From Sacculina carcini (taxonomy: Eukaryota > Arthropoda > Thecostraca > Sacculinidae), in the NCBI GenBank assembly GCA_916048095.2, contig OU696582.1:3991001-4055000 (forward strand): a stretch of DNA of 64,000 bases. The letters run 5' to 3'. The position numbers were made by a program, and so were the translations under genes. This document shows positions 3,001 to 64,000 of this stretch, one piece after another (position 1 is the first letter of the stretch; every line of letters begins with the position of its first letter). The notes below the pieces were generated by a model. The model saw only the letters and a program-made list of their open reading frames with translations, made no database searches and was not told where the DNA came from.

Positions 3001-3577
3001 CATTAAAACCCGCCCGTTGTGCGGAACAATTCATAAAAATATTGCAAATTAAAAATAAATAAGGCAAACTCATGAAGACCTTAATCAATTAAAAAGTCTA
3101 AATTTCATTATTTTTAATTTTATTTTGACAAAATATTTTCACTCAACCCGCCTCATATTTAAACCCGCCCGACGTGAGGAAAAATTCAGAACTCGAACAC
3201 CATCCGTTCTGGTTCTTGAAGTCAAATCCATTAGTTTTGTATATGAATTCATTCTATACGGTGAAATTGAACGTTTTATTGCTGCCCGCGGGACATTTTT
3301 ATTTCATAAAAATGAGCCATCGCTTCGTTTGCGTTTGAAGCCCCTGATAATTGAACCAGCGAACCATGAGCCAGCGCAATTATGTCACCTCATATTCAAG
3401 CATACATACACAGACAGACAGATAATTTCTTCTTTATGTATATATATAGCATTAAAACCCGCCAGTTGTGCGGAGCAATTCATAACATGAAATTCATATT
3501 CGATTCATAAAAAATATGGAAAAATAAAAATGAAATAGGGTACACTCATAAAAATATTAATCAATTGAAAATTATAA
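1..3577 (+). repeat. Left copy of a near-identical 3.58 kb duplication (offset 21,495 bp)
   Basis: Matches 21496-25072 base for base apart from about three substitutions noticed by eye (near 1648, 2034 and 2613). Identity stops sharply at 3577/25072. Units 2 and 3 are clearly more diverged from unit 1 than unit 4 is, so the duplicated module is larger than a single unit. The left limit cannot be seen because it coincides with the window edge. Confidence 0.93.
690..2505 (+). repeat. Tandem array of ~340-405 bp monomers, unit 1
   Basis: The phrase TATTCCTGTGTAATCGCAAG recurs at 747, 1087 and 1492; a variant with TATTCATG lies at 1150. Spacings are about 340 and 405 bp, the longer form containing a ~62 bp internal duplication. 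From about 1840 to 2440 the monomers are progressively diverged but still recognisable (TACCGTGCTGTAGAAAACAA, ATGATGGTAATATTTA). The array ends in a CAGA/CACA microsatellite followed by GAGGATCTCTTTTATATATA (2470-2535). Confidence 0.85.
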
Positions 3578-4100
3578 GTTTAATTATTTTTATTTCGACA
3601 CAATATTTCCCCTCAGTCCGCCTGAGTCATTTTTAAACCCGCCCGTCGTGCTGAATAATTCAGAACTCGAACACGATCCGTTCTGCATCTTGAAGTCAAA
3701 TCCATTGGTTTTGTGTATGGATTAATTCTACAGGGTAAATTGAACGTTCTATTGTCTATAGTTGCTGCCCGCGGAACATTTTTATTTAAAAAAAAAAACC
3801 TTTTTTTAAATGAACCATTTGAAAAAATGATCTAAAAACACTTTTTTAAACCCACCCGTCGTGCGGAACAATTCATACAATAAAATTCATAAAATATCCA
3901 TAAAATATAATGAATACAAATCGAAAAGCAAAAAATGTAACCTATAAATATCTTAACCAATAGAAAAGTCTAAATGTGAATATTTTTGTTCTTATTTTGA
4001 CAAATATTATCCCTCAACCCGCCAGATATATAAATCTGCCCGTCGTGTGGTATAATTCAGAACACAAACACGAAACAAACAATGAAAGATGATGAAATCT
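2530..4100 (+). repeat. Tandem blocks carrying the CCCGCCCGTCGTGCGG motif, unit 1
   Basis: A ~30 bp motif around CCCGCCCGTYGTGCGGAA recurs at about 2548, 2704, 3009, 3167, 3459, 3639, 3853 and 4036. It alternates between a version followed by CAATTCATAAAAT and one followed by TAATTCAGAACTCGAACAC. The stretch 2535-2990 is repeated as 2995-3450 at high identity. No coding potential beyond repeat-derived frames. Confidence 0.8.
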
Positions 4101-4170: not shown

Positions 4171-4404
4171 TGTAAAAGCTTGTATTTAAAACACTAATGA
4201 AACGACAAAGAAATTATACACCCAAACATCAACACGTAATTACACATCAACACTAATTCACTTCCTATCTCAATAACTCTCATCCACGCAATTCCGTTAA
4301 ATTCAAATCTCCGCTCGCACTGCAAAACCAACAATAAATATACAAACATTAACATCACGTGATAAATATGTTCGTGATACGCCAAACATCAACTCATAAT
4401 TACA
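4171..4404 (-). repeat. 3' LTR of the gypsy-type element (minus orientation)
   Basis: 234 bp, identical by eye to 8122-8355. The pol stop codon (4400-4402) lies inside its first five bases. Confidence 0.93.
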
Positions 4405-44625: not shown

Positions 44626-44885
44626 GCGACGATGTCATTTTCCGAGATTATTCATCTGTGGCCTCCATCAGAATATAAGGATGCAGATGTCGACGCAGAG
44701 ATTCCGGTACCGGTGACCACGGGCGATACGAAGTCAGCGCCTGTCATCGAACAGCAAGACAATCTTCCTGCTGTGTCAACTTGCGATAAAGCTCAGGCGC
44801 ATGCTGAGGACGATCAAGGCGTTGGAACATCAGCAGAAACCGGGCACGAAGAACTCACTCCGTCAAGGCGTGGTCGCCGCAGAGT

Positions 44886-46049
44886 TATAACAAAGTTATA
44901 ATCAGACCAGTTTTCTATCTGTCAGTTTACTCAGTTTTTTTCTCTCTCTTTCTCAGTTTACGTTCGCGTTCTTTCGCGGCTTGCTTGTGCAGCTGTCGTT
45001 AGGCTAATTTATGTGTTAGAGCGACGCCCGTATTACACGGCGCCTGGTATGTTTGGCACGAGTGGAGTATGTGTGACAGTAATTAATGACCCTTTTTTGT
45101 ACGTTTGACTTTGCTGATCATCTCGAGGCAACACGCCTGTGTACTGTCAGATCGCGTTTAGAAATAGCTTGTGTCCCGGTTGAGTAGTTCGAGCAGTTTG
45201 GTCAGCTGGCAATTTCTTGCGAAATATGGTGCCAACGACGTGTGTTCGTAGGTATATAACCTTGGCTGTGCTTTTTGGTGGGTCAGTTGGTTTGGTTGGA
45301 CCGTCGACGTGCGAGGTAGGACTCACCACTCACTCAGGCAAGCCGTAATTAATTCATTAGATTTAAGAATAACTTTAACGTAGATTGACTGATTGCTGAA
45401 AATATACAATTCAAACTCAACTGGGTGATCATTACTTGTTATCGCGGACCACAACATCAAGAGGAACTATCAAGACTTCACGATCAGCCGAACGAAGATC
45501 AATATCACAACATATTATTATCATCGTTACAAGAGTGCGTCCAGGAAGATTGGTGGATTATGCCTAGTAATATATTATGTGCGGGATATATAATGTTTAC
45601 GCGTATATTTGGTCTTTAATGCGTTGTGTGTGTCCATGTAGTAATTCGTGTTGAATCTTGTTGCGCTTTTGCGGCGAAGGCCACGTAAACCTGAATGGGC
45701 GCGGCCTAACAGCAACAACAACAACGTGTATTTGCTATAGCGCCAGTAAAACACAAGCGCGAAAAACGGAAGACATCAATTGAGATAAAACAAGAATTGT
45801 AAAGAATATGGGAGAAATGAGCAGGTAAAAGATAGAGAAGTCACAAAACAACCAAAATGGGTAAATAGCAAGAACAAGCACAAGTCGAAAAGTAGGCACT
45901 AGTCGAAAGGTAAGGAAATTAGGTCTCTGGGTATTCTGTTGGGCGATTTCGCATAGGTGGGTTAGGTTCCAGAAGTTGAAGTTTGTTACTGGTCATTATA
46001 TTAATACATTCTGGTTTCTAATTAAGTGTCTTCTAACGTCGACACTACA
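44886..46049 (+). repeat. 3' LTR of the Mag-like element
   Basis: About 1,164 bp from TATAACAAAGTTATAATCAG to GACACTACA. The pol-derived frame ends in its first bases. It is duplicated at 54721-55913, where a ~28 bp insertion near 55100 (GGGGTTTACTGATAATAAGG) distinguishes the copies. Confidence 0.75.
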
Positions 46050-46635
46050 TGTCCCCATTGGGAATATAGCACCAAATAATGAATATATTTATTTAGGCAT
46101 ACTCACATAATACAAGCTTAGGTGAAAACATTTGAGCAAAAAGGTATAGGATATGCATATTTTATGAGGCGACGCAACCAGGCGATACACACATATGCAC
46201 ATGTATCATGTTAAGTAATTTGTAATTTTTGTTAAAATGTGTGATTAATGTAATTTTTAACATCCTTCCCATGTGGCTGTACCATTGCGTAAAGGAACCT
46301 CATTTGAGCAAAAACAATTACAGGGGAAACAGTAGATTTTGTCGCTCCTGCGTGAATACATTAGCCATGAACGCTTCATTTTTTCGCCGTTAGGTAACGG
46401 GCGGTAATAGTTACTGACAGTGAAGCGGTGTTAGATCTATTCACTGGCAAGCTGAACGTTTCGTCTTGAATGAGTGGGCCGCGTTTGATAATATCACAGC
46501 GTTGCTTGTCTGAAATTTGATCCGGTGCAGGCCGGTCTGCTGGATCATTCGTCAGTGGTGAAAATCCACTGCACACTGGCTCTTCAGCATCATTCTAAGA
46601 TTCACCTGTTTCATCCAAGTCAGTGCAAACATCGA
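46050..46635 (-). pseudogene. Fragment resembling the N-terminal region of hAT/ZMYM-type transposase proteins
   Basis: On the minus strand (46576-46376) the translation NDPADRP followed by KQRCDIIKRGPLIQD resembles the DPA-W...R..I...GP segment found before the TTF-type zinc finger of hAT-derived and ZMYM-like proteins. The rest is AT-rich and uninformative. Repeated at 55914-56497 (minus-strand frame 56438-56238). Confidence 0.4.
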
Positions 46636-46954
46636 TATTCAGAAGCTAACACAGTGCGTAATCGAACTAAGCAGACAAGTAAAAAATATAAATACTAGAC
46701 CCGAGGATATCAGGCCACAGAGACATAAATTGCAGCAATATCCGCAGCGTGGACCACCACCACCACCGATTAATAGATACTGGAACCAACAACCAAATCA
46801 GCAAAGAACAATGCCTCGAAGTTTCCAGGCTGCACAAAAATATTCATGGACCCCAGACGGACAACCAATATGCCAACACTGTGGTAGAATCGGTCACACT
46901 AGACAACATTGCAGGGCTCGTATGATGCCAGCAAGAAATCAGTCGGAAAACTAA
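46636..46954 (+). pseudogene. gag: Gag C-terminal fragment with one zinc knuckle
   Basis: Open from the repeat boundary (about 46632) to a stop at 46952-46954. A Gln/Pro/Asn-rich stretch is followed by a single CCHC knuckle, CQHCGRIGHTRQHC (46870-46915). The N-terminal matrix/capsid part is missing, so this gene is broken at its left end. Pol begins in the -1 frame within the last 45 bases, as in retroviral gag-pol overlaps. Confidence 0.7.
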
Positions 46955-49900
46955 AGAAAACCGCTATTGAAACTGGTCAGTATGTGGTTCAGACTTCTAA
47001 ACCCAGTGAACATTTGGTTGGTAATTTTAATATAAATAATAATACACCAATGTGTTATGCAAATGTAGGAGGCAAGCGAATTTACATATTGATTGATACT
47101 GGGTGTGACGTAACAATAATATCAAAAGAAATTGTGATGAAATTAAATCAATTGTATAAAATAATTCTCGACGATGCCGTACGCTTAACTAGTATTACCG
47201 GAACAAGATTAAAAAACGCTGGAACTATTAAATTACCCATCTGTCTTGCTAAATTTAATAGTGAATATGATTTTAGAGTGGTAGAGAACTTGAAGTCCAA
47301 AAGTTAAAAATACTAGGTAGTACAATACCTTTAGTGTCAAAGTCGGCTCTAAATGCACCAAATAAGCACTTGATAAGACTAAACAATTCTGTAAAAATTG
47401 ATCCTAGGACTTGTACAACTGTATTTGACGAATATATCGAAAATTGGGATAATAAGTGTAATGAATTTGTGATAACACCGGATCATAAGTTATATCCATT
47501 CAATATGGAGCCATTGCTACATGTGAAGCAAACAGTGACAAGTATCACGAATAATTGTCTGTCCATTTTCTTTGTTAATTATTCCACTCGCCGACTGAGC
47601 TTACCAGCTAATCAAGTAATTGGTTATGGAGAACCAACGCAAAATTTCAATGTAGCAGAGGTGAAGCAGGGCAGGGAATGTAAAACAGATGAAAGACAGG
47701 AAGTGAATATGAATCATTTGACTGCTACACAGAAAGAGAAAATTGTTCAATTGTTAGAACAAAATATAGATACATTTGCTAAATCAAACATGGATTTGGG
47801 AAAAACTGACCTAATGGAAATTAAAATAGAGACTGAAGATAACGCCAAACCCATCAAACAACAACCGTACCGATTACCGTATAGCCAGCGACAATTTGTA
47901 GAGGAACATTTGAACGAATTATTGAAGGCTAATCTAATTAAGCCATCCCAATCACCCTGGGCATCACCAATTTTATTAGTGTCAAAGAAAGATGAATCAC
48001 TCAGATTATGTGTTGATTATAGGAAACTGAACAGGGTCACAAAGAAAAGTGGGTATGCATTGCCCAGGGTCGATGATATATTAGCATCTCTCGGAGGATC
48101 AAAGTATTTCACTTCACTAGATTTAAAATCAGGATATTGGCAGATTCCCGTACACAAGGATTCAATTCCAAAGACAGCATTTACTTGTTTCTTAGGGAGT
48201 TTTGAGTGGAATTATATGCCGTTTGGACTTGCTTGCGCACCATCGGTGTTTTCAGAACTGATGAATACTGTACTACACGGAATACAGTATAAATTTTGTA
48301 TTGCTTATATGGACGATATCATAATATTCTCAAGATCATTCGAGGAACATTTGGAGCACTTGAAAATTGTATTTGAACGACTCAAAAAGGCCAGGTTGAA
48401 ATTAAAGCAGTCAAAGTGTGAATTTTTACGCCCGGAAATTAATTATTTAGGACACGTAGTGTCACCCAGTGGTATTAAACCGGATCCTAACAAAGTTATA
48501 GCACTGAATAAGTTACAAACTCCAAGAACAGTAAAAGACATTCGTTCATTTATCGGATTAGCCAGTTATTACAGAAGATTCATATCAAAATTTGCGGAAA
48601 TTAGTAAACCATTAACATCCTTAACACGGAAACATGCACGCTTTTAATGGTCACGTCAGTGTCAAAAAGCGTTTGACCAATTGAAAACAGCTCTCGCAGA
48701 ATCACCAATACTAAATTACCCAGACATGAACAAGCCATTCAAATTATACACGGACGCTTCAGATGTTGGAATATGCAGTGCATTAGTACAAGAAACAGAT
48801 AATGGACAAGAAAGGGTGATTCAGTTTCTGTCACATCAGCTATCTAACTCACAGATGAACTGGCCGATAATCGAGAAAGAGGCTTATGCCATTGTGTACT
48901 CTTATCAGAAGTTTCGACCATATTTGTATGGAGCTAAATTCACCGTATATTGTGATCATAAGCCGTTGCAACATCTTTTTACATCTGAAATGAGGAACCC
49001 ACGCATACAACGATGGGCTATCATGCTGGACGAATATAAATGTAATGTCGAATATATTCCCGGATCAAAGGATATTGTTGCAGACGCTCTATCAAGATTG
49101 CCGACAGAAGAAACTGAAGTAAACCTCATTGATTCTGATACTTACGCAGGGGCACAATTGAGTAGTACAATAGAGGCATGCCCAGAAAATAAAGATATTG
49201 AGGATAACTGTGAATAAATTATCAGAAGCTCGAACAATCTTATAAATTTACAAAGAGAAAACAAATATTTTGCAGCCATAATTACAATACTTAATGATAA
49301 AAGTAAAGAATGCAACTTACGCCCAACAAAAGAAGTGAAATCATTTGTAATGCATGATGAATTTTTGTATCACATATCAGACCCCGACAATTGTAACAAA
49401 CATCCCGGCATGCAGTTGTGCATTCCATCACTTTTCAGACCATTATTAATGAAGGAATCCCATGACAGATACTTAGGTGGACACTTTGGAATTGATAAAA
49501 CGTATACAAAAATACGATCACGATATTTCTGGCCCGACATGTATAAGGATATAGTTCAGTATGTCACAAAGTGCGTTCAATGTAATATGAGAAAACTCCA
49601 CAAACAAAAACCACCTCTGCAAGACATGCAAATCCCTCATTATCCCTTTGAGATTATTTCAATTGATTGTTGCGGTCCATTCCCTTTGAGTTATGCTGAA
49701 AATAAGTTCATAATAAATATTGTTGATCATTTTTCCGGATTCCCCGAATCCTTCCCAGTACCAGACAAGTCTGCAGATCAAATATGTAGAATTTTAATTG
49801 AAGATATTATTCCCCGTCATTCCTGTCCCCGTGTCATTGTCAGTGATAATGGATCATAATTTCGCCATGAGGTGATCAATCAATTGAATATGTTCTGCAA

Positions 49901-51134
49901 TATCAAGCATATCCGAACATCTGTATACCACCCTCAAGCCAATGCTAAAGTAGAGCGTTACCATCGAGTTCAGAATGATTTTCTAGCAAAAACAGTTGAT
50001 GTATCTCAACGTGATTGGGACAAGAAAATTCCATCACTATTGGCTGCACATCGCACAGCAGAACATGAAACTACTCGTTTGTCACCATTTTTTGTATTAT
50101 ATGGCAGAGAACCAGTTATGCCAATGGAAACCATATTAACACCAAAATATCGTTATTATGGAGAAGACTATTTATCCACCATGTTGGTAAACATGAATCA
50201 AACATTTCATCACGTTCGACATCACTTGGTGTTAGGTCATGAAAAGAATCGCCAATATTATGATAAAAAAACAAAACCAATCAATTTAAAAACAGGAGAC
50301 CTTGTTTACTTCAGAAATCCTTCCAATGCTTCGACTAATAAATTATCGCTCCGATGGGATCCTAATTATCGAATAATACAGTTTATAAGTCCCGTTTCAT
50401 GTTTGATTAAAAACCAAGTGAACGGAGAAACACATAAAACACATGTAGAGAACCTACGACTTAGGAATGAGGCTTTAGTATGGAAACAATATAATACTAA
50501 ACCTGAACATTTGCATAAAAAGTATCGGGAATTTCAGCGGTCATATATACCAATAAGTACACGAATCACCAGACAAAATGCTCCAAATGAAACAACCTTA
50601 CAACCTACAAAAGAAGATTCAGTAGACAATATGCCACTAGAGGAGAGACTAAGACTAGCACGCGAACAGAGGGACATACGGGACATTGTTAAAGACACGG
50701 AGGTTGCGCCGCCAACAATCACAACAAACGCTAAACGCTCATCAGAGATTAATGAGACCATTAATAAGAAAAAGAGAGATGAATGGAAAAGAAAAACAAG
50801 TTCGTCTGAAGATGAGGAACAAAACAAGCGAATGAGAATGACTAATGAATTAGATGTTGGTATAGATACAGTGGATTTCATACAAGAAAATGAGAGTAAA
50901 AGCGGTCTTATAAAATACGAAACGGATATTGAGGAAGGTTCCATAGACTTCACTGATGGATGTATGAATGCATTAAATATTGAGCAACAGGATAATGTAC
51001 GAGGCACACATGGTGTCAAGAGAACAAGCTTGTGTCAACCGTCTAACGGTGAAAATACACAAGACATTAGGTTGAAAGCATTTAACATGCTACTAAATAA
51101 ACAAGCGGAGTTATTGAAGCAATTGCTTTGTTGA
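46909..51134 (+). pseudogene. pol: Pol of the env-bearing element: protease, RT, RNase H, integrase, interrupted
   Basis: The protease (ILIDTGCDVTIISKE) is in one frame to about 47280; a single frameshift near 47281-47290 moves to the frame used by everything downstream. RT (LRLCVDYRKLNR, AYMDDIIIFS) runs to an in-frame TAA at 48645-48647. RNase H (KLYTDASDVGI, EKEAYAIVY) runs to TAA at 49215-49217. The integrase HHCC motif and first catalytic Asp (HDRYLGGHFG, CVQCNMRK, IDCCGPF) run to TAA at 49857-49859, exactly at the DNG motif. The rest of the integrase (NAKVERYHR) follows, with a GPY/F-like module (LSLRWDPNYRIIQF) and a ~230-residue charged C-terminal tail. All domain motifs are intact apart from these breaks. 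Confidence 0.85.
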
Positions 51135-51319: not shown

Positions 51320-53581
51320 ATGCTTCATACATTAATAACATACACTTTAACCGAGATAAGTAATTCTTCAATGTTTTATTATGTTAATAGGAAGATGCTT
51401 CTACGGATGCTGCTACCTCTACTGGTTTATTTCCTTATTATGGAGGCAAATCCTATTTTCCTCCCACGTGGTAAACTACTCTCATCCTTTTCTTCCTGGA
51501 TGCTGCATGTGCCTTTTAGTTTCAGAGTAATAAAAGAAGATCTTCAGAATCTAATAAATAAAACTCATGAGTTGGACTTAAAAGAAAAGAGATGGTCAAG
51601 TCAATGGCATGCAAACATCTATACGCATTGTTATCACTTGTGTAATATGTTAGAGGCAGTTGAAACAAATATCAACATACTCAAGTACGAGACAGCACTA
51701 GCACAAACTGAATTAACAGAACTATTAGATCCCTCTATCGGAACCAGAAAAAGAAGGACAGCAGTATTGCCGTTTGTGAGAAATATAATGTCGACATTAT
51801 TTGGATCAGCTACTGATTCAACCATAAATGAGATATTGAATAGAATAGTTGAATTGGAGTCAAACCAAGGGGAAATGCTGCATTTGTCCGATAAATCGTT
51901 AACTATTCTAAACAATGTAACCACAGCCACACAAGGGAATAGAAAGGCCATCAACAAACTCATTAATTACATAAATATAATAGGAGACAAACTAATTGAG
52001 CTAAACCACACTCAGTCTAATCGTATGGAGTCTCATCAGGCCTATCAACAGATTCTAAGTGCATTCAACCAATTATTCAACTCCTTCCAAGACCTTCGTT
52101 TAGTGACTAAACAAGTTAAATTAGAAATATCGTTAGCTCAGGCAGGTATTCCTCCCAGATCATTGCTTCCAGCTGCCACGTATAAAAATACGCTGCGATC
52201 AATCAGCACTAAATTGCCCAGGACCATTAGTCTTCCATTCGATATCAGCAGCACGGCTGATATTTACTCCTTAGTGCAATGCTCTCTAACTATGACACGC
52301 AGAAAAGGAGAAATAGATGGTTTCCTACTACACATTCATATACCTCTTTTAAATTATGCCATAGCTTATGATACTTATGAAGTGGTTGGGATACCCAAGC
52401 CAATTCAGTTTGAAAATAAGCTAATGACTATTTCTACAGTGGTTCCTGATCACACTTTCTTAGTCATATCACCAGATTTAACGCAATATGCTATAATTCA
52501 AGATCCAACGATAAACATGTTTTTGGCCAGTAAAGTACCATTTTATCCGTTTAAAGGGGCATTTTATAACACGGCTCATTCAAAACCTTGCCTGGTAACA
52601 TTGTTCTTAAACCATACGCCTAATGTGGATAATAAATGTACTCAAATAATTCGAAATATATCTGACACGTACACAATTGCACATCATGTTGTAGAAGGAC
52701 ATTGGGTATTAATTCACTCCCCAAATATAACTTTGAAAATCGAATGTGGTAATAGTTCATTTACAAAACGATTAATTAACAAAATAATTTCACATGTTAA
52801 AATGGAAGAAGGATGTTCAGCTAGCACTCTTGATGTAAAATTACCTAGATACTATGCCCGTTCAACAACCATTCAAGTACAGAATGCTACACAACATATA
52901 ATAAATAATATAGGAAATCCAAATTTGGTTTACCTACATATAAATACTAATAAAGAACAATTACAGGACCATTTGAAGTTTCTGGACAATATTCCTGATG
53001 AAGGAATAACCATAAAACAAATGAAACAACAAGTCAAACAATTACAGAACTATAAATCTCATAAATTATACACACAAACCGGGTTTCCCATCCTGTTCAC
53101 AATGGTAGGCATATTAGTTCTGTTTGCAGTTATTGTTAAGTGCTATAAACAAAATAATCAATTACCTCCTATACTACCGTCAACTATTCAAATCCCCACT
53201 GTTTCACAACCTATCCTGGCATCAAAATCCCACTGCCACACCAATGCAAAACGAGCCACAGGGAAGAAGTACTCGCGCTTTCGGCCTGAAAAGTCAAGAA
53301 TAACTCAACTACTGCATGCTGAATCAACAGGACCGAATAATTTAGTACAAAATGATCAACGGAGTATCTTCAATCTTGCCGGAGGTACTAATAACAAGAA
53401 TGCCGCGACACAACTTCGGAATCCAACGCATCCTCGCCAGCCGTCACAATCAAGAGATCTTAGAGGTGTTGGTAGACTGGGAGAACTGGTCATCATACAA
53501 CGCGACCTGGGAACCATTATACAGCCTGCCTATCGGTGTATTACTCCAATACCAGCTGGAGATCTCCCAGCCTGCAACTGA
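51320..53581 (+). CDS. env: Envelope glycoprotein-like protein (errantivirus/baculovirus-F type)
   Basis: 753 codons, uninterrupted. A hydrophobic signal-like segment (MLLRMLLPLLVYFLI) starts at residue 26, so translation may begin at 51395 rather than 51320. A furin-type site (TRKRR, residues about 142-146) precedes a hydrophobic fusion-peptide-like stretch (AVLPFVRNIMSTLFGSA). Long helical regions, several N-glycosylation sequons and conserved cysteines follow. A transmembrane segment (GFPILFTMVGILVLFAVIV, about 591-609) is followed by a ~140-residue tail. In this family Env mediates membrane fusion; function here is inferred. It lies 185 bp after pol and overlaps the chromodomain ORF by 230 bp in another frame. 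Confidence 0.83.
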   Translation: MLHTLITYTLTEISNSSMFYYVNRKMLLRMLLPLLVYFLIMEANPIFLPRGKLLSSFSSWMLHVPFSFRVIKEDLQNLINKTHELDLKEKRWSSQWHANIYTHCYHLCNMLEAVETNINILKYETALAQTELTELLDPSIGTRKRRTAVLPFVRNIMSTLFGSATDSTINEILNRIVELESNQGEMLHLSDKSLTILNNVTTATQGNRKAINKLINYINIIGDKLIELNHTQSNRMESHQAYQQILSAFNQLFNSFQDLRLVTKQVKLEISLAQAGIPPRSLLPAATYKNTLRSISTKLPRTISLPFDISSTADIYSLVQCSLTMTRRKGEIDGFLLHIHIPLLNYAIAYDTYEVVGIPKPIQFENKLMTISTVVPDHTFLVISPDLTQYAIIQDPTINMFLASKVPFYPFKGAFYNTAHSKPCLVTLFLNHTPNVDNKCTQIIRNISDTYTIAHHVVEGHWVLIHSPNITLKIECGNSSFTKRLINKIISHVKMEEGCSASTLDVKLPRYYARSTTIQVQNATQHIINNIGNPNLVYLHINTNKEQLQDHLKFLDNIPDEGITIKQMKQQVKQLQNYKSHKLYTQTGFPILFTMVGILVLFAVIVKCYKQNNQLPPILPSTIQIPTVSQPILASKSHCHTNAKRATGKKYSRFRPEKSRITQLLHAESTGPNNLVQNDQRSIFNLAGGTNNKNAATQLRNPTHPRQPSQSRDLRGVGRLGELVIIQRDLGTIIQPAYRCITPIPAGDLPACN

Positions 53582-53924
53582 CAACTCACTAATACAGCGC
53601 TGGGGCCCACAAGGACCCCCTGGTCCACGACACAACAAAGTGGGCACTTACCAACACGAGCCCCGACGTCGACAACACTTTAATGAACGACCCGACGGAC
53701 TACAATATAGATGGGGGCGTGTGCCACTCGAAGACGGCCGAATGGTAGTCTATGATGTCAACGACGGGCTGCCGCGGGCTCTGGTTCACGCCGCCGATGA
53801 AAACGACCAGAGAGAGCATGGACGCCGGGTTGACAGAATATACCCTGCCGGTATACCTTTGTTACCCGACATAGTCCCTGAACAACATCGCCAACCTGGA
53901 TCGAGACGGGGGCGTCGATGTTAA
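53352..53924 (+). CDS. Overlapping ORF with an N-terminal chromodomain
   Basis: 190 codons from ATG 53352, in a different frame from env. Residues about 21-70 match the chromodomain pattern: NFGIQRILASR, then EVLVDWENW, then NATWEPLYSLP and a terminal helix (GVLLQYQLEI). The aromatic-cage positions are occupied by F22, W43 and W46. The rest is Arg/Pro/Gly-rich and ends with RRGRRC at the candidate polypurine tract. Chromodomains in gypsy elements are normally fused to the integrase C-terminus and guide integration to chromatin; here it is separate, downstream of env and overlapping it. It could be a separate ORF, an env-tail extension after frameshifting, or the result of an old frameshift mutation. 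Confidence 0.75.
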   Translation: MINGVSSILPEVLITRMPRHNFGIQRILASRHNQEILEVLVDWENWSSYNATWEPLYSLPIGVLLQYQLEISQPATDNSLIQRWGPQGPPGPRHNKVGTYQHEPRRRQHFNERPDGLQYRWGRVPLEDGRMVVYDVNDGLPRALVHAADENDQREHGRRVDRIYPAGIPLLPDIVPEQHRQPGSRRGRRC

Positions 53925-54720
53925 GGCCATTTTTCACCAACACCTTAACAACACTTCCCATGTTCCCCTTATCAACTTGTGTTGTGCAATCATTAATTAA
54001 ATACGTGTGGTATGTGTAGTTGTGTTGGAATATAGTATTGTGTTGTTTCAAATGTTACGGTGTGAACGATAGCTGGTCTTGTGTCAAACAGGCACATGCG
54101 TTAATGTACATGTCTGCGTGTGTGTGTTCGTTTATAGAGAAATCTTCACACGTATATGATAGGACTATTTGAATGTATGGATCACAAAATAACTCGTGAA
54201 GGATTCTAGCTAATAATTTTTAATGAAAATGTAAAGATAACTGGTCTGAATAATTATAAAACATCACTCGTAAAGCTGTTGAGTATTTTGGGCTAATACT
54301 GAACGCTGGAGCTGTCAGTTATTGATGCTGCCGGAATACCACAAAACTATTGGGATGAGGCAAACATCGACAAAAGACAGTTAATGCGCCAGAATTCACC
54401 AGCAATTGACTGGTGACACAGGACGCTCCTGTGTTTTATGTACGGCCCTGTCGACTCGATGTGACAGTTGATTATTATAGACGCACAATGCTGTATACAC
54501 ATACTTGCGGAGTATGTGTGTATGGTGAGAAGTGGCGCTGTATAATCACTGATCACTGATCCCTGATTATGCCTAAGTTCTACCCTGAAGTGGAAACTCT
54601 GCAAATAATGACTGGCAGTTTGCTATAATTGTAACTATCACGATTCAGTAGAGCCGTTGGCTTTGATGGCCGTGATTGCGTCTAGTGTTCACATTCGTTT
54701 AAAACACCTCGCAGCTGTGA
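53919..54720 (+). repeat. Candidate 3' LTR of the env-bearing element
   Basis: A purine-rich GAGACGGGGGCG (53903-53914) is followed by TGTTAAGGCC at 53919, in which TAA is the stop of the chromodomain ORF. The remaining ~800 bp to the next repeat is non-coding. No second copy exists in the window, so the LTR assignment is unproven and its right end is unknown. Confidence 0.35.
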
Positions 54721-56497
54721 TATAACAAAGTTATAATCAGACCAGTTTTCTATCTGTCAGTTTACTCAGTTTTCTTTCTCTCTCTTTCTCAGTTTACGTT
54801 CGCGTTCTTTCGCGGCTTGCTTGTGCAGCTGTCGTTAGGCTAATTTATGTGTTAGAGCGACGCCCGTATTACACGGCGCCTGGTATGTTTGGCACGATTG
54901 GAGTATGTGTGACAGTAATTAATGACCCTTTTTTGTACGTTTGACTTGGCTGATCATCTCGAGGCAACACGCCTGTGTACTGTCAGATCGCGTTTAGAAA
55001 TAGCTTGTGTCCCGGTTGTGTAGTTCGAGCAGTTTGGCCAGCTGGCAATTGCTTGCGAAATATGGTGCCAACGACGTGTGTTCGTAGGTATATAACCCGG
55101 GGTTTACTGATAATAAGGGGGTACTTTGGCTGTGCTTGTTGGTGGGTCAGTTGGTTTGGTTGGACTGTCGACGTGCGAGGAAGGACTCACCACTCACTCA
55201 GGCAAGCCGTAATTAATTCATTAGATTTAAGAATAACTTTAACGTAGATTGACTGATTGCTGAAAATATACAATTCAACCTCAACTGGGTGATCATTACT
55301 TGTTATCGCGGACCACAACATCAAGAGGAACTATCAAGACTTCACGATCAGCCGAACGAAGATCAATATCACAACATATTATTATCATCGTTACAAGAGT
55401 GCGTCCAGGGAGATTGGTGGATTATGCCTAGTAATATATTATGTGCGGGATATATAATGTTTACGCGTATATTTGGTCTTTAATGCGTTGTGTGTGTCCA
55501 TGTAGTAATTCGTGTTGAATCTTGTTGCGCTTTTGCGGCGAAGGCCACGTAAACCTGAATGGGCGCGGCCTAACAGCAACAACAACAACGTGTATTTGCT
55601 ATAGCGCCAGTAAAACACAAGCGCGAAAAACGGAAAACATCAATTGAGATCAAACAAGAATTGTAAAGAATATGGGAGAAATGAGCAGGTAAAAGATAGA
55701 GAAGTCATAAAACAACCAAAATGGGTAAATAGCAAGAACAAGCACAAGTCGAAAGGTAGGCACTAGTCGAAAGGTAAGGAAATTAGGTCTCTGGGTATTC
55801 TGTTGGGCGATTTCGCATAGGTGGGTTAGGTTCCAGAAGTTGAAGTTTGTTACTGGTCATTATATTAATACATTCTGGTTTCTAATTAAGTGTCTTCTAA
55901 CGTCGACACTACATGTCCCCATTATGGATATAGCACCAAATAATGAATATATTTATTTAGGCATACTCACATAATACAAGCTTAGGTGAAAACATTTGAG
56001 CAAAAAGGTATAGGATATGCATATTTTATGAGGCGACGCAACCAGGCGATACACATATGCACATGTATCATGTTAAATAATTTGTAATTTTTGTTAAAAT
56101 GTGTGATTAATGGAATTTTTAACATCCTTCCCATGTGGCTGTACCATTGCGTAAAGGAACCTCATTTGAGCAAAAACAATTACAGGGGAAACAGTAGATT
56201 TTGTCGCTCCTGCGTGAATACATTAGCCATGAACGCTTCATTTTTTCGCCGTTAGGTAACGGGCGGTAATAGTTACTGACAGTGAAGCGGTGTTAGATCT
56301 ATTCACTGGCAAACTGAACGTTTCGTCTTGAATGAGTGGGCCGCGTTTGATAATATCACAGCGTTGCTTGTCTGAAATTTGATCCGGTGCAGGCCGGTCT
56401 GCTGGATCATTCGTCAGTGGTGAAAATCCACTGCACACTGGCTCTTCAGCATCATTCTAAGATTCACTTGTTTCATCCAAGTCAGTGCAAACATCGA
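54721..56497 (+). repeat. Right copy of the 1.75 kb direct repeat (LTR plus flank)
   Basis: Comprises the Mag-like LTR (54721-55913) and the hAT-like flank (55914-56497). Not preceded by any Mag-like coding sequence, unlike the left copy. It continues rightward into 56498-57000, which the left copy lacks. Confidence 0.85.
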
Positions 56498-57570: not shown

Positions 57571-58125
57571 ACTTAACCTAACTTTTTTTTTTTTTTTTTT
57601 TAACCTAACCTAACTTTTTTTCTTTTTTCCAACCTAACCTAACTTTTTTTTTAACCTAACCTAACTGTTTTTTAACCTAACCTAACTTTTTTTTAACCTA
57701 ACCTAACTGTTTTTTAACCTAACCTAACTTTTTTTTTTAACCTAACCTAACTTTTTTTTAGTTTTTTAACCTAACTTTTTTTCTTTCTTATTCTTCCTTT
57801 CTTATTATATTTATTCTATGCCCAACCTAACTTTTTTTATTTCTTATTCTTCCTTTCTTATTATATTTATTCTATGCCTAACCTAACTTCTTTGTGTATA
57901 CCTAACCTAACTTCTTTGTGTGTATACCTAACCCAACTTTTTTTTTCTTTATTCTATTCCTAACCCGACCCAACCCAACTTTTAGTTTTATTTCTTATTC
58001 TTCCTTTCTTATTATATTTATTCTTTATTCTATACCCAACTTATATTTTTTATTTCTTATTCTTCTTTTCTTATTATATTTATTCTTTATTCTATGCCCA
58101 ACTTTTATTTTTTTCCTTTATTTCT
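57571..58125 (+). repeat. AACCTAACCTAAC/T-run array and ~50 bp T-rich tandem repeats
   Basis: 57571-57780: about ten copies of (A)ACCTAACCTAAC separated by runs of 7-20 T. 57780-58120: copies of a T-rich unit containing TTTCTTATTCTTCCTTTCTT and ATTATATTTATTCTATGCC. CCTAA iteration resembles arthropod TTAGG telomere repeats but is interrupted by T runs. It borders the Polinton integrase end. Confidence 0.7.
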
Positions 58126-58279: not shown

Positions 58280-59083
58280 TCAAACACGTTGAAGTTCTTG
58301 ATAGTAAAATGTCCCGGTAATCAAATTTCCATCATCATCACACAGCTTATACATGGGAATTGATCGACGTTTGTATATGGAATCAATTTTGAACGTTTCG
58401 TTGCTAAATGTCTGTCGATATCCTTTTTCAAATAGAGTTTTCGGAATAAACATTCGCACATGATCGCCTACACGAAGCTTTGGTGTTTGCTTTTTGCGCG
58501 ACAATGTGTTGACCAAGTGTTGATTTGATAAAGTTACAGCGCGAGGTGCCATACCGATTGATCTATGTACAGTGCTGTTATACAAATTCACCAATTGAGG
58601 TAGATTTTTGACAAAGTGTTTTGTGTTGTTTTCGGTCATAAACTTGTGTATCAGCGAGAGCAGAGTACGGAAAAATCGTTCAATTATCCATGCCTTCCGT
58701 ATGATTGTAGATGTCGTATAATGATATATGTTGTGCTCTTTCATTACACGTTGAAATTCTCGCCCTGTGAATTCACCACCATGGTCGCTCATTATTTGCA
58801 TCGGTGTGCAATTGTTGGTGAGAATATGGTTCATTGCTTTGGCCACGGCAGGTCCCCGTTTACTATGTAATGCACGCACATATGCCTGTCTGCTAAACAC
58901 GTCAATTGCACCCAACAAATAACGTACTTGTGTGTTATGCCCACGTAGACGTGAAACATCGCACAAATCAACTTGCCATGTATCATTTAGTCCAGTGGAG
59001 GTGTATGCATTGTGTACGAAGCGCTTACGTACTGGACGATGGAGTTGTTTGGTTCTTGGCGACCAAATCAGCTTACTATCCAT
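58280..59083 (-). CDS. INT: Polinton retroviral-type integrase (N-terminus short)
   Basis: 267 residues from ATG 59083 with a DDE core: first Asp in DTWQVDLCDV, second in IMSDHGGEF, Glu in WIIERFFRTL. The C-terminal domain is typical of Polinton integrases (KLRVGDHVRMFI, FEKGY, GTFYYQELQRV). The family usually has an N-terminal helical region before the HRPVRKRF segment; here an in-frame TGA about 33 nt upstream of the ATG cuts it short, so the gene may be N-terminally truncated or spliced. The core catalyses insertion of the element with short target duplications. Confidence 0.87.
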   Translation of the reverse strand: MDSKLIWSPRTKQLHRPVRKRFVHNAYTSTGLNDTWQVDLCDVSRLRGHNTQVRYLLGAIDVFSRQAYVRALHSKRGPAVAKAMNHILTNNCTPMQIMSDHGGEFTGREFQRVMKEHNIYHYTTSTIIRKAWIIERFFRTLLSLIHKFMTENNTKHFVKNLPQLVNLYNSTVHRSIGMAPRAVTLSNQHLVNTLSRKKQTPKLRVGDHVRMFIPKTLFEKGYRQTFSNETFKIDSIYKRRSIPMYKLCDDDGNLITGTFYYQELQRV

Positions 59084-59124
59084 TTGCGCGGGATATTTGC
59101 CGATCGTTGATCAACTGTCGAAAC

Positions 59125-59595
59125 TCACTGCCCGTGAATATTCGGAGCAACTTCTCGCGGTAAATTCAACGACTCAATCAGTTGTCGCAGCTGTGCCCAC
59201 CCTGTTGGCTCAGGAACACTTTTACGACGTCGAACGATATAGTTTACCACATCGACAATATTGCTCCGAGGAATTTGTGCGTGGTTGAGATAAATGATAC
59301 CGGTGTTGTTGTCCCATCTCAGCACATTACTCAATTGGGAAAGCACGAATTGTGCATGTTTTTTATAGCTGGATGGTACAAGTTGGAGCCATTTATCAGT
59401 CTCTACAGACGGAGCAGGAGCGGTGGCCTGTTCAGGGCGCCAGGCGTTCATGTACTCGATCCGTTTCGCTTCGGCATTCCCTGTAGACTTGTTAAGAATT
59501 TGTTCTAGAGAGGGTGTGGGTGTGGCTATGGTTCGACCTTGCATTTCATCATATGTGGCTTGCGATATGAGAACCATTCGTTGGAAGGCGCTCAT
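59125..59595 (-). CDS. Polinton 156-aa conserved-type protein of unknown function
   Basis: The start codon overlaps the stop of the preceding gene (TAATG at 59597-59593). The protein is soluble-looking, with LNHAQIPRSNIVDVVNYIVRRRK (in two parts: LNHAQIPRSNIVD and VVNYIVRRRK) near residue 105-127 and a TGWAQL segment near the C-terminus. Similar IxGSNxxDLV...RxRK blocks are familiar from small proteins of arthropod Polintons, but I cannot name a function. Its position between the pX-like gene and integrase suggests a virion or accessory role. Confidence 0.65.
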   Translation of the reverse strand: MSAFQRMVLISQATYDEMQGRTIATPTPSLEQILNKSTGNAEAKRIEYMNAWRPEQATAPAPSVETDKWLQLVPSSYKKHAQFVLSQLSNVLRWDNNTGIIYLNHAQIPRSNIVDVVNYIVRRRKSVPEPTGWAQLRQLIESLNLPREVAPNIHGQ

Positions 59596-59924
59596 TACTT
59601 TGCAGACAGTATACAGCTTATAACCGATGCAACCACGGGTATAAGGGCGGATAAAAATTTTCCGCTTTGCACCAACACTCGTTGTTTTTTCTTCAGTGAC
59701 GGACGTTTGTCACCCAATTTACGCAGTATTTTCTTGTATTTGGATAGGCGACGCTTTTGTTCTTTTTCCAAAGGGACGCGGTCTTGCAACAGGTTATGAC
59801 AAATTTCACAAATAGCCCGTATCAGAGCAGGGTCGTACGTGTTGAGAACGGCTTTTTGTTGACGTTGTGTGAGACGCGGAAGTGATTCGATTGTCGGCCA
59901 ACAGCGTTGCAACGTCGACGACAT
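59595..59924 (-). CDS. Polinton small basic protein with C-terminal hydrophobic segment (pX-like)
   Basis: 109 residues. Helical N-terminus (LTQRQQKAVLN, AICEICHNLL), a strongly basic middle (KRRLSKYKKILRKL, RPSLKKKQRVLVQSG), then a hydrophobic tail (FLSALIPVVASVISCIL). The basic RVLVQSGKFL...LIPVVASVI pattern resembles adenovirus pX-like and comparable Polinton/adintovirus proteins, which are core or membrane-active. The function is inference from composition and context. Confidence 0.6.
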   Translation of the reverse strand: MSSTLQRCWPTIESLPRLTQRQQKAVLNTYDPALIRAICEICHNLLQDRVPLEKEQKRRLSKYKKILRKLGDKRPSLKKKQRVLVQSGKFLSALIPVVASVISCILSAK

Positions 59925-59958
59925 GTTGACAAATGATTCACTTGCTCAACTATATGTG

Positions 59959-60618
59959 CTATTTATACCTCAAAGCGGGAAGATATACTGTTATGGGTTG
60001 TTCCAACACATTGCTACGCACACGTAGTCTGTTGTCAGTTTGTTGACGCAAATCCACAAGCAAATGACCGTACATTTTCTTCATTACGTCTCTATAAACA
60101 TCCATAATGAACCTGATATTATCTGGCATGTACTGTTGAGCAAATGCGCGCAGTGGTGTTTGATCTCGAAAATTACGGAAAAATACATAATAATTTGTAT
60201 TTAGACTGATTGTGCGGTAGTTTGGCGACTTGAGAAACGTGTTTTGGGTGACAAATAGTACACTCATGTTGTCGTGACGTGACGTTTTTGTAAACATGTC
60301 ACGTACAACAGGCCCTTCCACAGCATCCAGTAAGTCGTCGATAATGACCATGCAACCTTTACCGTGTTTATGTTTGCTTGCCAATCGTTGAATTTCCTCA
60401 TGCGATGGCACCCCGTACTGCATTTCATTAACTAAATTCTTATCTATATGATCTGGCGCTGCAGTTCCGTGGCAATACAGTACATAATCGGGGCTTCGGG
60501 TGAGCACTTGGTCCGCCCGTGTCAGCATGTCGACTATAAATTGACTCTTGCCGGACCCTGAAGGACCGGACAAGATCATTGTGAACGGTGTAACAAGACG
60601 TGCGTCAAACGTTTCCAT
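59959..60618 (-). CDS. ATP: Polinton genome-packaging ATPase (A32/FtsK-HerA type)
   Basis: 219 residues. Walker A GPSGSGKS (residues 19-26), Walker B GCMVIIDDLLD (about 87-97), and a downstream FVTQNTF sensor-like segment (about 122-128). Length and motifs match the A32-like packaging ATPases of Polintons and related double-jelly-roll viruses. It lies 34 nt upstream of the pX-like gene. It would pump element DNA into capsids if capsid genes exist in this copy. Confidence 0.88.
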   Translation of the reverse strand: METFDARLVTPFTMILSGPSGSGKSQFIVDMLTRADQVLTRSPDYVLYCHGTAAPDHIDKNLVNEMQYGVPSHEEIQRLASKHKHGKGCMVIIDDLLDAVEGPVVRDMFTKTSRHDNMSVLFVTQNTFLKSPNYRTISLNTNYYVFFRNFRDQTPLRAFAQQYMPDNIRFIMDVYRDVMKKMYGHLLVDLRQQTDNRLRVRSNVLEQPITVYLPALRYK

Positions 60619-60845
60619 ACCAGCCGTACCGATGAAACTGATCTACGTTTAACTATAGGGGTATTATATAAAGTATGTTTTGCTGATGTGCGACCAGTTT
60701 TGCGCTGAACATTACTAGCCAAACACCCGCGACGCTTAATCGGATCATATAACAATCCCACTATTACCAGCTCTGCAATTACACTTTCAACATAGTTGAC
60801 AAGGAGCAATAGTGATAATAGGAGCAACATTATATTCGTCACCAT
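60576..60845 (-). CDS. Possible small membrane protein between polymerase and ATPase
   Basis: ATG 60845 starts 89 residues with a hydrophobic N-terminus (MLLLLSLLLLVNYV) followed by a basic region (DPIKRRGCLASNVQRKTGR). The frame is open upstream only because it runs through a CA microsatellite, so the start at 60845 is the first sensible one. Its 3' end overlaps the ATPase start by 43 nt. It could be a real small Polinton gene or chance. Confidence 0.35.
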   Translation of the reverse strand: MVTNIMLLLLSLLLLVNYVESVIAELVIVGLLYDPIKRRGCLASNVQRKTGRTSAKHTLYNTPIVKRRSVSSVRLVWKRLTHVLLHRSQ

Positions 60846-60907
60846 CTCGGTGATTGTCAATTGAATGACACACATACACATCAACACTTGTATATTAAAG
60901 CTTGCAC

Positions 60908-60955
<48 letters not shown>

Positions 60956-61073
60956 CACACACATACACACCAAAGCATGTATACACATCAACACTTTTAT
61001 ATTTATATAACACACACACACACACACACATACACACCAAAACATGTATACACATCAACACTTTTATATTTAT

Positions 61074-61112
<39 letters not shown>

Positions 61113-61315
61113 ACCAAAACATGTATACACACCAACACTTTTATATTTATATAACACACACACACACACACACACCAACACTTTGATATTTATATAACAC
61201 ACACACACACACACACACATACACACCAAAACATGTATACACACCAACACTTTTATATTTATATAACACACACACACACACACACCAACACTTTGATATT
61301 TATATAACACACTAA
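60908..61315 (+). repeat. (CA)n microsatellite within a ~60-120 bp minisatellite
   Basis: CA runs alternate with the phrase CCAAAACATGTATACACA and ATCAACACTTTTATATTTAT, repeated about five times. Continues as ACACTAGCACAACTAAC repeats to 61460. It sits between the polymerase and ATPase genes. Confidence 0.85.
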
Positions 61316-61521
61316 CACAGCTAACACACTAGCACAACTAACACATCTAACACACTAGCACAACTAGCACACAGCTAACACACTAACACTGCTAACACTT
61401 TTATATTAAAAACCAATACATCGAGCACAACTAACACACCTAGCACAACTAACGCTGGTAACACAGCAAATAAGTAGCAATAAATAACGATGATGATGAT
61501 GTCGGTCGGTCGGTCGGTCGG
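61316..61521 (+). repeat. CTAACACA-type and GGTC repeats
   Basis: Imperfect repeats of CTAACACACTAGCACAA, then a (GGTC)n stretch at 61503-61525 that runs into the last codons of the polymerase gene on the other strand. Confidence 0.6.
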
Positions 61522-64000
61522 TCAGTCGGTGAAGCCGTACGGGAAGGTGCGATAATCGGGAAGGACCCTGCGTTTGCTGGAAACTAACCTATTAATTTTT
61601 TCCCCTCCCACCGTAATTATCTTAAAATCTACAGTCTTTTTAAATTGCCGAAAGGGGACTTTGATTGTGGACCCAGGCGCCTCTAACAGGGATCGGAAAG
61701 CGTCCAAGGAAATAAGCTGCTGCGTGTCGTGTGTTTGTGTGATGCCGCGCATTTTTACTATAGTCTTGGTGTGCCCGTCTGGTGTGTGTACAGTAAAAGC
61801 GTAATTTTTGGGAGACAGACAGACTATATGAGAAATATAGCTGCCTGCCCCGAAACAAGTCAGTTCGTCAGTCATGTCGCCGAGAAAGTGTGATGTGTGT
61901 ATGCGTGGCATTTCTGGTGATGTTTTGTAAATGACTGAATCTGTGTCGCAGTATATTAGCTGAAAAGGATTAAGGCGTTGCAGGAAAGAGTAAAGATAAA
62001 GTCGGGATTGGCAAGTGACAAAAGCAGCAAGGATTATGTTAGTTTTAAGCGGACCGGCCACAGTCTTGTCTTGTCGATGGGAATACGTCAGCCTCCATAC
62101 ATCGTGCATTATGCTGTCCCCCTCACTATCGTCAGCCACCGATATGAGGTCACACGCGGAGACCTCCATGTCGGGATCCTCCAGCAGATCGTAAACACGA
62201 CGCATGGAAGTGACGTATTCAGTCTGCCCCAGGTTTGCGCGCTGAGCCAGCTTGCCCCACTGGCTGTTGAGGCACAATTTGGCCACAGCTCTCAGGCCCG
62301 GATTCCTCTCAATGGTCGGCAGGGTTATACCCTCACGCGCTTCGAGAGTCTGTCTGTAGTCGTGTCGGTCGTCGTCAGTCTGCACGTGAGTGGGATAACC
62401 CTCGGCGCTGACCTTGAGGGCGTAAAACTTGTTTACATATTCTGCAAACAATCCGCCTGCCTCGCCGTCGTTGAGCTGTGTGGTGTTGGCAAAGTGCCAG
62501 AACTCGTGGATGGAAGTGAGCCGATACCCCAACCCCAAAGCTTTTGCTACTTCCAGCGACACCCAGCTGGAAGTGAGACTGCGCTCCTCGTCCGAATGGT
62601 GACACTGCGGCGACCTTGTGGTGAAATTGCCACCGATACCCTGCTCGGCACATGTTCTACACAGGGTGAACATGAGGCGGTCGTTGATGCGTGCGGGAAG
62701 GACGGGAACGTGAAGATTGTGCGGAGGGAGAATTGTGCAATAAATGATGCCGAAATATTTGTGAAAATCTGTGATGGGAGGACGGAAAATGTGAGAAGGA
62801 TGACCGAGGGGAAATTTTCCGTTTTTAAGGATGTAAGGATACAAGGAGCACACATCAACGTACTCGATCCGCTCGTCACCAGCACATTCGGCATAGTGAC
62901 GAAACACCTCTGTTCGCCCTCCGTAGAACGCGTCCCGAACATTCATCGGCGGCAAGACTTGCACTGCTTCGGCGCGACAACGTTGGTCGTCATCGTCTCG
63001 AAGCAGTGCATCAAATTCACACTCCCAGATGGTGATGAGAGTTGTGTCGGGTCGGGCTCGTAGTATGGCCAGACGAGCCATGGTGCCATCATATAGATGG
63101 CGCGTTGATGGAGCCCCACTGTTCATGACATAGCGACAGTTTTTGCTGGCGCAGAGACACTTACCAGAATGCCGATGACCATGAAAGTAGCAACCGAGAA
63201 ACTCGAAAAGCAGGTGTTGGTCTCCCACTTTGGCATAGCCGTCCACTTTGTACGACCCAATACGCACCTCACCAGAGTTCAATGCGTGCTGGATATTGAT
63301 GTCGCGAGACGACGCCTCCAGTTCCAGCCACTGGATCGATTTCTTCGAGTAGTTGCCACATGGTCGGTAGTGCTCATGGCTCGGTATCAACGCGACGCTG
63401 TCTTTGCGCAAAAACTTTTGACGCCACACCTCATGACACGCAGATGGAAGCGTGATGCTCTGAAATGGGTCCACCTCAGTCACCTCGATGAATTGTTGGC
63501 GGAAACGCATACTACCGAGACGAAGTACATTGACATCGTCGCGGCAGTACGCTCCCATTTCCTGGCGCAGGTCATACTGCCGGCCCACCTGCGAGGCATG
63601 CCAAGTGAGAAACTCGGCGTGCTGTTCGGTGGACATGCGACCCGGGTCGAACATATCGGCTGAAGGAAAAGGACCTACATAATTTTGATTGTCCGTAGTG
63701 TTGAGGAGGTGAGGGAAGAAACCTTTACGGACAGGAATGTTGAACGTTTTGGAAAATTTCGCAAGAGGCATAGGAAGGAAACTGAAGGAATCAATGAAAC
63801 GGAGTTTGGAGTTGGAGAAGCGCATGGAGAGGATTTTTCTGCCGTTCATGATCAGGTCTGGCACCACACCTTGGCTCAACGCGTAATTGGCAACAATGTT
63901 GTTGTCATAACCTTGGGCATAATGGGCAATGGCTTTCGCGTCCTTGAGCGTGAAAAGCCACTGACCAAAGTCTTGTCTTGTCGTTGGGCCAGAGAACACA
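61522..64000 (-). CDS. PolB: Polinton protein-primed DNA polymerase B (partial, cut by the window edge)
   Basis: At least 825 residues; the frame is still open at the edge, so the N-terminus (including the first exonuclease motif) lies outside. Exonuclease motifs follow: QGYDNNIVANYAL (about 30) and YCRDDVNVL (about 150). An inserted segment has VDGYAKVGDQ then FEFLGCYFHGH (about 252-275), a VSR/PD-(D/E)XK-like pattern seen in many Polinton polymerases. Polymerase motifs are A (VDVCSLYPYI), B (KLCLNSQWGKLAQR) and C (YCDTDSV). It replicates the element using a terminal protein primer. No internal break was seen. Confidence 0.9.
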   Translation of the reverse strand, partial: VFSGPTTRQDFGQWLFTLKDAKAIAHYAQGYDNNIVANYALSQGVVPDLIMNGRKILSMRFSNSKLRFIDSFSFLPMPLAKFSKTFNIPVRKGFFPHLLNTTDNQNYVGPFPSADMFDPGRMSTEQHAEFLTWHASQVGRQYDLRQEMGAYCRDDVNVLRLGSMRFRQQFIEVTEVDPFQSITLPSACHEVWRQKFLRKDSVALIPSHEHYRPCGNYSKKSIQWLELEASSRDINIQHALNSGEVRIGSYKVDGYAKVGDQHLLFEFLGCYFHGHRHSGKCLCASKNCRYVMNSGAPSTRHLYDGTMARLAILRARPDTTLITIWECEFDALLRDDDDQRCRAEAVQVLPPMNVRDAFYGGRTEVFRHYAECAGDERIEYVDVCSLYPYILKNGKFPLGHPSHIFRPPITDFHKYFGIIYCTILPPHNLHVPVLPARINDRLMFTLCRTCAEQGIGGNFTTRSPQCHHSDEERSLTSSWVSLEVAKALGLGYRLTSIHEFWHFANTTQLNDGEAGGLFAEYVNKFYALKVSAEGYPTHVQTDDDRHDYRQTLEAREGITLPTIERNPGLRAVAKLCLNSQWGKLAQRANLGQTEYVTSMRRVYDLLEDPDMEVSACDLISVADDSEGDSIMHDVWRLTYSHRQDKTVAGPLKTNIILAAFVTCQSRLYLYSFLQRLNPFQLIYCDTDSVIYKTSPEMPRIHTSHFLGDMTDELTCFGAGSYISHIVCLSPKNYAFTVHTPDGHTKTIVKMRGITQTHDTQQLISLDAFRSLLEAPGSTIKVPFRQFKKTVDFKIITVGGEKINRLVSSKRRVLPDYRTFPYGFTD

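Follow-up and report, generated by a model that had tools for sequence, protein, structure and literature searches.

An LTR retrotransposon in the genome of Sacculina carcini carries, beyond its env gene, an open reading frame (ORF) for a 190-residue protein in which the first-pass annotation of this DNA recognised a convincing chromodomain (53352..53924, forward strand). The ORF begins within env, is read in a different frame and shares 230 bp with it, raising the question of whether it is a gene in its own right, a tail of Env or an instance of overprinting, and what such a protein would do for the element. Coordinates refer to the window, the whole 64,000-nucleotide stretch analysed; loci (L numbers) and contigs (C numbers) come from matches across the genome (264 Mb, 43 contigs). 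We conclude that the ORF is almost certainly a separate, selected gene of the LTR element, and we predict that it is a conserved accessory (fourth) gene of a Ty3/Gypsy-type element with a baculovirus-F-like env.

The element occupies ~44.9-56.5 kb of the window and comprises two LTRs, a gag remnant, pol, env and the chromodomain ORF (hereafter chromo ORF), all on the forward strand. The LTRs are each ~1.75 kb long (44881..46635 and 54716..56497, with approximate ends taken from their alignment) and are 96.9% identical over 1791 alignment columns, with 24 substitutions in 1753 aligned sites. The region past the 5' LTR has been lost and the LTR ends cannot be fixed precisely; the 3' end of the 5' LTR may be truncated by the deletion that took most of gag, of which a CCHC zinc knuckle, read by eye, is left (46870..46915). 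Protease (46909..47307; Pfam RVP 24.2 bits, cut-off 20.7), reverse transcriptase (RT, 47334..48647; RVT_1 E 2e-40), RNase H (48681..49217; RT_RNaseH E 4e-39) and integrase (49335..51134) follow in separate ORFs, the integrase being divided between two (49335-49859 and 49872-51134). Integrase_H2C2 scores above its Pfam cut-off and rve slightly under; the C-terminal integrase ORF matches no Pfam family and its tail is charged. The env gene (51320..53581) is of the Baculo_F type (E 2e-15), and the chromo ORF, assigned from Pfam, structure-bank matches, alignments and selection, ends ~790 nt ahead of the 3' LTR. The LTRs and the order protease-RT-RNase H-integrase are those of Ty3/Gypsy (Metaviridae) elements, and the env, matched by Baculo_F here and at E 6e-22 in the relative L026, is of the errantivirus type.

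The element has several neighbours in the window. To its right, positions 57573-57958 contain AACCTAACC-like repeat arrays interrupted by T-runs, presumably the TTAGG telomere-type motif, and the reverse strand of 58280-63999 encodes an integrase core, a Pox_A32-type ATPase and a type B DNA polymerase, genes that we take to be Polinton/Maverick-like. A second LTR-type pol (989 aa) lies at 4400-7369 on the reverse strand; since 13 copies among the matches listed, the window's included, are 98-100% identical with a 999-codon open frame, this second element was probably active recently.

The chromodomain assignment made at first pass stands up to profile searches. The 190-aa product scores 27.2 bits against Pfam Chromo (PF00385; cut-off 25.1) and its counterpart in the sister copy L009 scores 31.3 bits. 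A profile of 11 sequences matches the solved chromodomains of CBX2, CBX8 and CBX4 at E 6e-5 to 8e-5, while the window product as a single sequence reaches E 0.0014 against solved chromodomains. The domain spans approximately residues 22-70 and is followed by a conserved C-terminal part at approximately residues 81-146; no Pfam family beside Chromo was found in the protein, and an NCBIfam scan was empty. Single-sequence structure prediction was poor (mean pLDDT 45.6), and within this low-confidence model strands at 22-29 and 35-42 and a helix at 62-69 are consistent with a chromodomain, the best-scored segment being a hairpin at 121-146. Outside the window's subfamily the Pfam scores fall under the cut-off (15.6 bits in L026, 19.0 in L021 and 24.2 in each of L029, L030 and L031), with one L030-type copy reaching 27.4 bits. 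A Chromo search of the whole genome returned copies of the chromo ORF as nine of the 18 matches listed, all above cut-off.

The methyl-lysine cage of a chromodomain is built from three aromatic residues. F22, W43 and, in the window's subfamily, W46 align with aromatic residues of CBX2 that we take to be its cage. Of the cage F22/W43/W46 put forward in the first-pass annotation, F22 (a W in the second ORF described below) and W43 are kept across the aligned sequences, whereas W46 is confined to the window's subfamily and is missing from the L019, L026 and L030 lineages. Because of this restriction, the ligand or the affinity of the chromo proteins may differ between lineages.

The integrases scanned offer no second home for the domain. 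Pfam detects no Chromo match in the integrase ORFs of the window, including the C-terminal one, nor in pol of L026 or L063, where a single open frame runs from RNase H through the integrase end. The C-terminal integrase chromodomain that characterises chromoviruses is thus absent from the integrases scanned (window, L026 and L063), as had been noted for the window at first pass.

If the chromo ORF is a gene, it should be maintained as one, and comparisons within the same genome bear this out. Its product has at least 152 matches (440 candidates, 150 scored), and open homologues are found at 93-95%, ~62-66%, ~50% and ~42% identity (L009, L010, L019, L021, L024-L028 and L029-L031); L016, in which the last part of the ORF shifts frame, is not counted among them. 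These copies were picked by chromo similarity, so that the fraction intact is not representative of all copies. Conservation in the 11-sequence alignment spans most of the protein, beyond the chromodomain. The dN/dS ratio lies between 0.11 and 0.25 in seven of eight chromo comparisons, among them window/L014 (0.14, Fisher p 2e-8), L024/L026 (0.12, p 5e-18), L019/L021 (0.22, p 2e-11) and window/L009 (0.25), and is 0.37 in the eighth, which sets a first against a second ORF. Between lineages pS is 0.71-0.90 and pN 0.21-0.45. Pairs of first ORFs within L029-L031 are too alike to be informative (L029/L031 gives 0.58 on six differences). For env the ratio is 0.20-0.25 in three close pairs, and by this measure purifying selection on the chromo ORF is estimated to be about as strong as on env.

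The position of the ORF is equally consistent: it lies 3' of env in every fetched copy in which both are recognised and, in the window, upstream of the 3' LTR. Two further lineages, with full-length RTs 56-68% identical to that of the window, carry it as well. Conservation, purifying selection and the Pfam match together favour the free chromodomain protein, apart from the integrase, that was among the readings first offered. A homology search of a large protein database returned nothing for the chromo ORF and nothing for env either, and because the env query was also empty the null for the chromo ORF says little; insect elements of this kind seem to be scarce in that database. Scans of IMG/VR and GTDB gave no match.

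One branch carries a further ORF of this kind. In L029-L031 the first chromo ORF (~42% identical to that of the window) is followed by a second ORF of 122 aa, which shares 38-48% identity with chromo ORFs over ~58 of its residues (E 1e-9 to 1e-11). For this second ORF the Pfam Chromo score is a sub-threshold 13.5-13.6 bits in L030, L058 and L060, and L059 yields no match at E 0.1; because the Pfam scores are this low, its chromodomain label rests on similarity to the chromo ORFs, and we refer to it as chromo-like. Pairwise ratios for the second ORF run from ~0.15 to 1.2 among six copies, on few differences, and establish no selection signal.

Seven loci with a family RT (56-98% identity) and no full chromo match among the genome matches listed were fetched. 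Three of them (L058-L060) have kept just the second ORF, which is open in all three; their RNase H to integrase end is a single open frame of 809-811 codons, and almost no env is left. L059 and L060 share a deletion running from about env codon 40 to past the first chromo ORF, and L058 has a different one that spares the last 52 codons of that ORF; at both junctions the flanking matches overlap by a few bases. The deletion loci are L058/L075 on C23, and L059/L063 and L060/L076 on C35 and C3. In L059 the LTR starts are identical at 316 of 316 bases in the fetched part, and the second ORF ends ahead of that LTR. L056 (RT 98%) and L057 (RT 96%) have lost env and the chromodomain half of the ORF and retain a diverged C-terminal remnant, with one short reverse-strand env match remaining in L057. 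L062 has the env end and the C-terminal remnant without the chromodomain, and neither env nor chromo was found within the 5 kb fetched of L061. From these comparisons the chromo ORF is judged to be widespread and selected, and it is not retained by every copy or branch; copies that have lost it may be helped in trans, or its function may be one that the element can do without. Because a chromo-like ORF was retained after two different env deletions, its role would appear to be in intracellular replication rather than with Env.

What that role might be is a matter of prediction. There are two leading candidates: the chromo protein may tether or target the pre-integration complex, or it may counter host silencing. 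For the former, translation would start at the ORF's own ATG, either by re-initiation or on a subgenomic message that is perhaps spliced, and the chromo protein would bind chromatin through the chromodomain, while the C-terminal part would bind integrase, Gag or the pre-integration complex. The free protein would then perform in trans the task ascribed to the integrase chromodomain of chromoviruses in cis. This tethering mechanism seems to us about as apt to be right as wrong; a trans-acting chromatin factor fits the observation that a small chromodomain protein is kept, in shorter form, after two env losses. With rather more hesitation, we suggest that an env-bearing LTR lineage moved chromatin reading from the integrase to a free trans protein, which was duplicated in one branch and kept despite the loss of env.

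Genomic position was compared for this family and two controls. Fifty-seven RT matches of at least 56% identity, merged at 100 kb, give 42 places, of which the 37 on contigs >5 Mb were used and the five on small contigs excluded. Twenty-eight of the 37 lie within 0.15 of the contig middle, against 13 of 42 for the other LTR element of the window (p 2.5e-4; one match on a contig of unspecified size dropped) and 18 of 38 for other Gypsy-type RTs (p 0.095, not significant). For 45 merged chromo-ORF places, hand-picked from the matches listed, the count is 31, with p 2e-4 and 0.097 against the two controls. Since the bias is suggestive against one control only, it is not taken as proof of targeting; that control element is young, so that age confounds the test, and a mid-chromosome bias can be explained by age or by selection against insertions. 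The contigs C32 (0.7 Mb) and C33 (0.15 Mb) are short and rich in RT fragments of the element family.

A role in counter-defence is the strongest of the alternatives, and one we consider rather unlikely. The chromo protein would mimic or compete with HP1, Rhino-like or Polycomb readers and so relieve heterochromatin or piRNA silencing. Rhino, Oxpecker and HP1 chains are indeed among its structure-bank matches, and the closest of seven host chromodomains reads as Polycomb-like (36% over 39 aa, E 1e-6); yet similarity to host readers is low throughout, at 30-38%, and the nearest one varies by lineage, being the HP1-like L072 for L030. The distribution of fragments also lends this alternative something, since many among the matches listed fall on contig C35 between 3.3 and 4.45 Mb, and the single 7.5-kb locus examined there, L016, also has RNA-virus-derived sequence and may belong to a silencing cluster.

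The L016 locus (C35:4339900-4347400) has features of its own. Two reverse-strand ORFs (3217-4014 and 5836-6612) join chromo-ORF fragments to sequence resembling PB1, the influenza-type polymerase (Pfam Flu_PB1 E 4e-14 and 5e-14; PDB E 2e-6 for the first), and a Tenui_N match below cut-off lies in the vicinity. The many chromo-ORF fragments around it on C35 (3.3-4.45 Mb) perhaps form a silencing cluster.

Less probable still is that the element captured the ORF as a passenger, its conservation being due to recent activity of the lineage or to use by another unit. A chromo ORF 65-68% identical does occur in a ~3.5-kb repeated unit with no recognisable pol or env in the stretch fetched (L018-L020 and L022), and the relatives L056, L057, L061 and L062 no longer have the chromodomain, as a passenger might allow. 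A mere passenger would not be expected to experience purifying selection comparable to that on env, to be present in two further lineages at 56-68% RT identity to the window, or to have its second ORF stay open after two different env deletions. The ~3.5-kb unit is best seen in L019 (1030-4511, reverse strand), accompanied by a repeated block upstream and by further small ORFs, and has many partial matches in the genome.

The overlap with env bears on the two remaining alternatives, both of which were discarded on comparing frames among copies. The 230-bp frame-shifted overlap reported at first pass is present in the window, but it is not a property of the element, as all eight near sisters (L009-L016) differ. 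Window env codons 636-753 match the sisters in another frame than codons 1-635, and in each sister an env piece reaching to codon 635 (codon 654 for L012) lies in the chromo frame; this piece spans just 17 codons in L016, and an earlier env piece of L014 sits in another frame. Some copies keep env open as far as its natural stop, and in L009, L010 and L013 env reads to its own stop 48 nt upstream of the chromo ATG. Stops were counted in 25 copies, a non-random set picked by chromo similarity, across the 228 nt that begin at the chromo ATG: the frame that would extend env has at least two stops in 17, one in six and none in two, and the chromo frame is stop-free in 21. The window is among the six one-stop copies, its single stop being the one that terminates env. 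Because the extension frame is open in most near sisters and yet discontinuous with their env, the overlap is a frameshift scar private to the window's env and not ancestral; the first-pass annotation had listed such a scar as one option, and the window env is indeed out of the sisters' frame after approximately codon 635.

That the chromodomain is a C-terminal extension of Env, made by programmed frameshifting or read-through as a chromatin reader on Env, is accordingly very hard to sustain. The window's overlapping frames first suggested it, and in L066 (of the L026 type) the chromo frame stays open back into the end of env; in the sisters, however, env stops 48 nt short of the chromo ATG, the L009 spacer containing three in-frame stops, and a chromo-like ORF survives without env. 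Nor is the frame relation constant across copies, being the same frame in the sisters, a different frame with a 110-nt gap in L026, and a gap of 2 nt between env stop and chromo ATG in L031. True overprinting, with the same bases encoding a functional env tail in one frame and a functional chromo ORF in another, is weaker yet and scarcely credible, for while both frames are open in the window and the second in several near sisters, that second frame is not the one of the preceding env piece in any of the eight and has at least two stops in 17 of the 25 copies. As to splice sites, an AG is seen by eye shortly upstream of the chromo ATG in the lineages, as expected by chance. The spacer before the ATG in L024-L028 contains, by eye, tandem repeats of ~26-30 bp, which in L066 are readable in the chromo frame.

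A separate, selected chromo gene, once accepted, would allow chromatin reading to be studied separately from the chemistry of integration. It also raises the prospect that elements of this sort code for chromatin factors acting in trans, or for proteins that suppress silencing. Env-less branches with a chromo-like ORF and branches without the chromodomain provide natural comparisons.

Among known systems the closest in content are the chromoviruses, likewise Ty3/Gypsy-type LTR elements that encode a chromodomain, which makes chromatin targeting the natural guess; theirs is at the integrase C-terminus, whereas here it is a separate ORF 3' of env. The consulted portions of three papers place LTR-element chromodomains at the C-terminus of integrase or pol (PMC2774666, PMC12440569, PMC5408687), in agreement with what the first-pass annotation said of gypsy elements, and Copia-type CoDi-A elements are also listed there as chromodomain-bearing (PMC2774666). 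Such integrase-tail chromodomains are thought to steer insertion, and a selected free chromodomain gene in an env-bearing element departs from that pattern as those portions present it. The titles and abstract openings returned by searches of an open-access library describe no free chromodomain ORF after env. The insect errantiviruses share the order of pol then env, a Baculo_F env and LTRs; they differ in the additional chromodomain ORF, none being described for them in those titles and abstract openings. For rotifer elements with additional ORFs, the portion consulted of one study reports that a chromodomain C-terminal to GPY/F is missing from every lineage, and describes extra ORF3s (DEDDy and GDSL) in the bdelloid Juno and Vesta elements (PMC5408684). 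Juno and Vesta resemble the present element in having, besides gag and pol, an ORF with a domain foreign to Gag, Pol and Env, and differ in that the domain is DEDDy or GDSL there and a chromodomain here. With the host HP1, Polycomb and CBX proteins the chromo ORF has in common the domain itself and its aligned aromatic residues, but identity to the nearest host domains is just 30-38% over ~40-50 residues.
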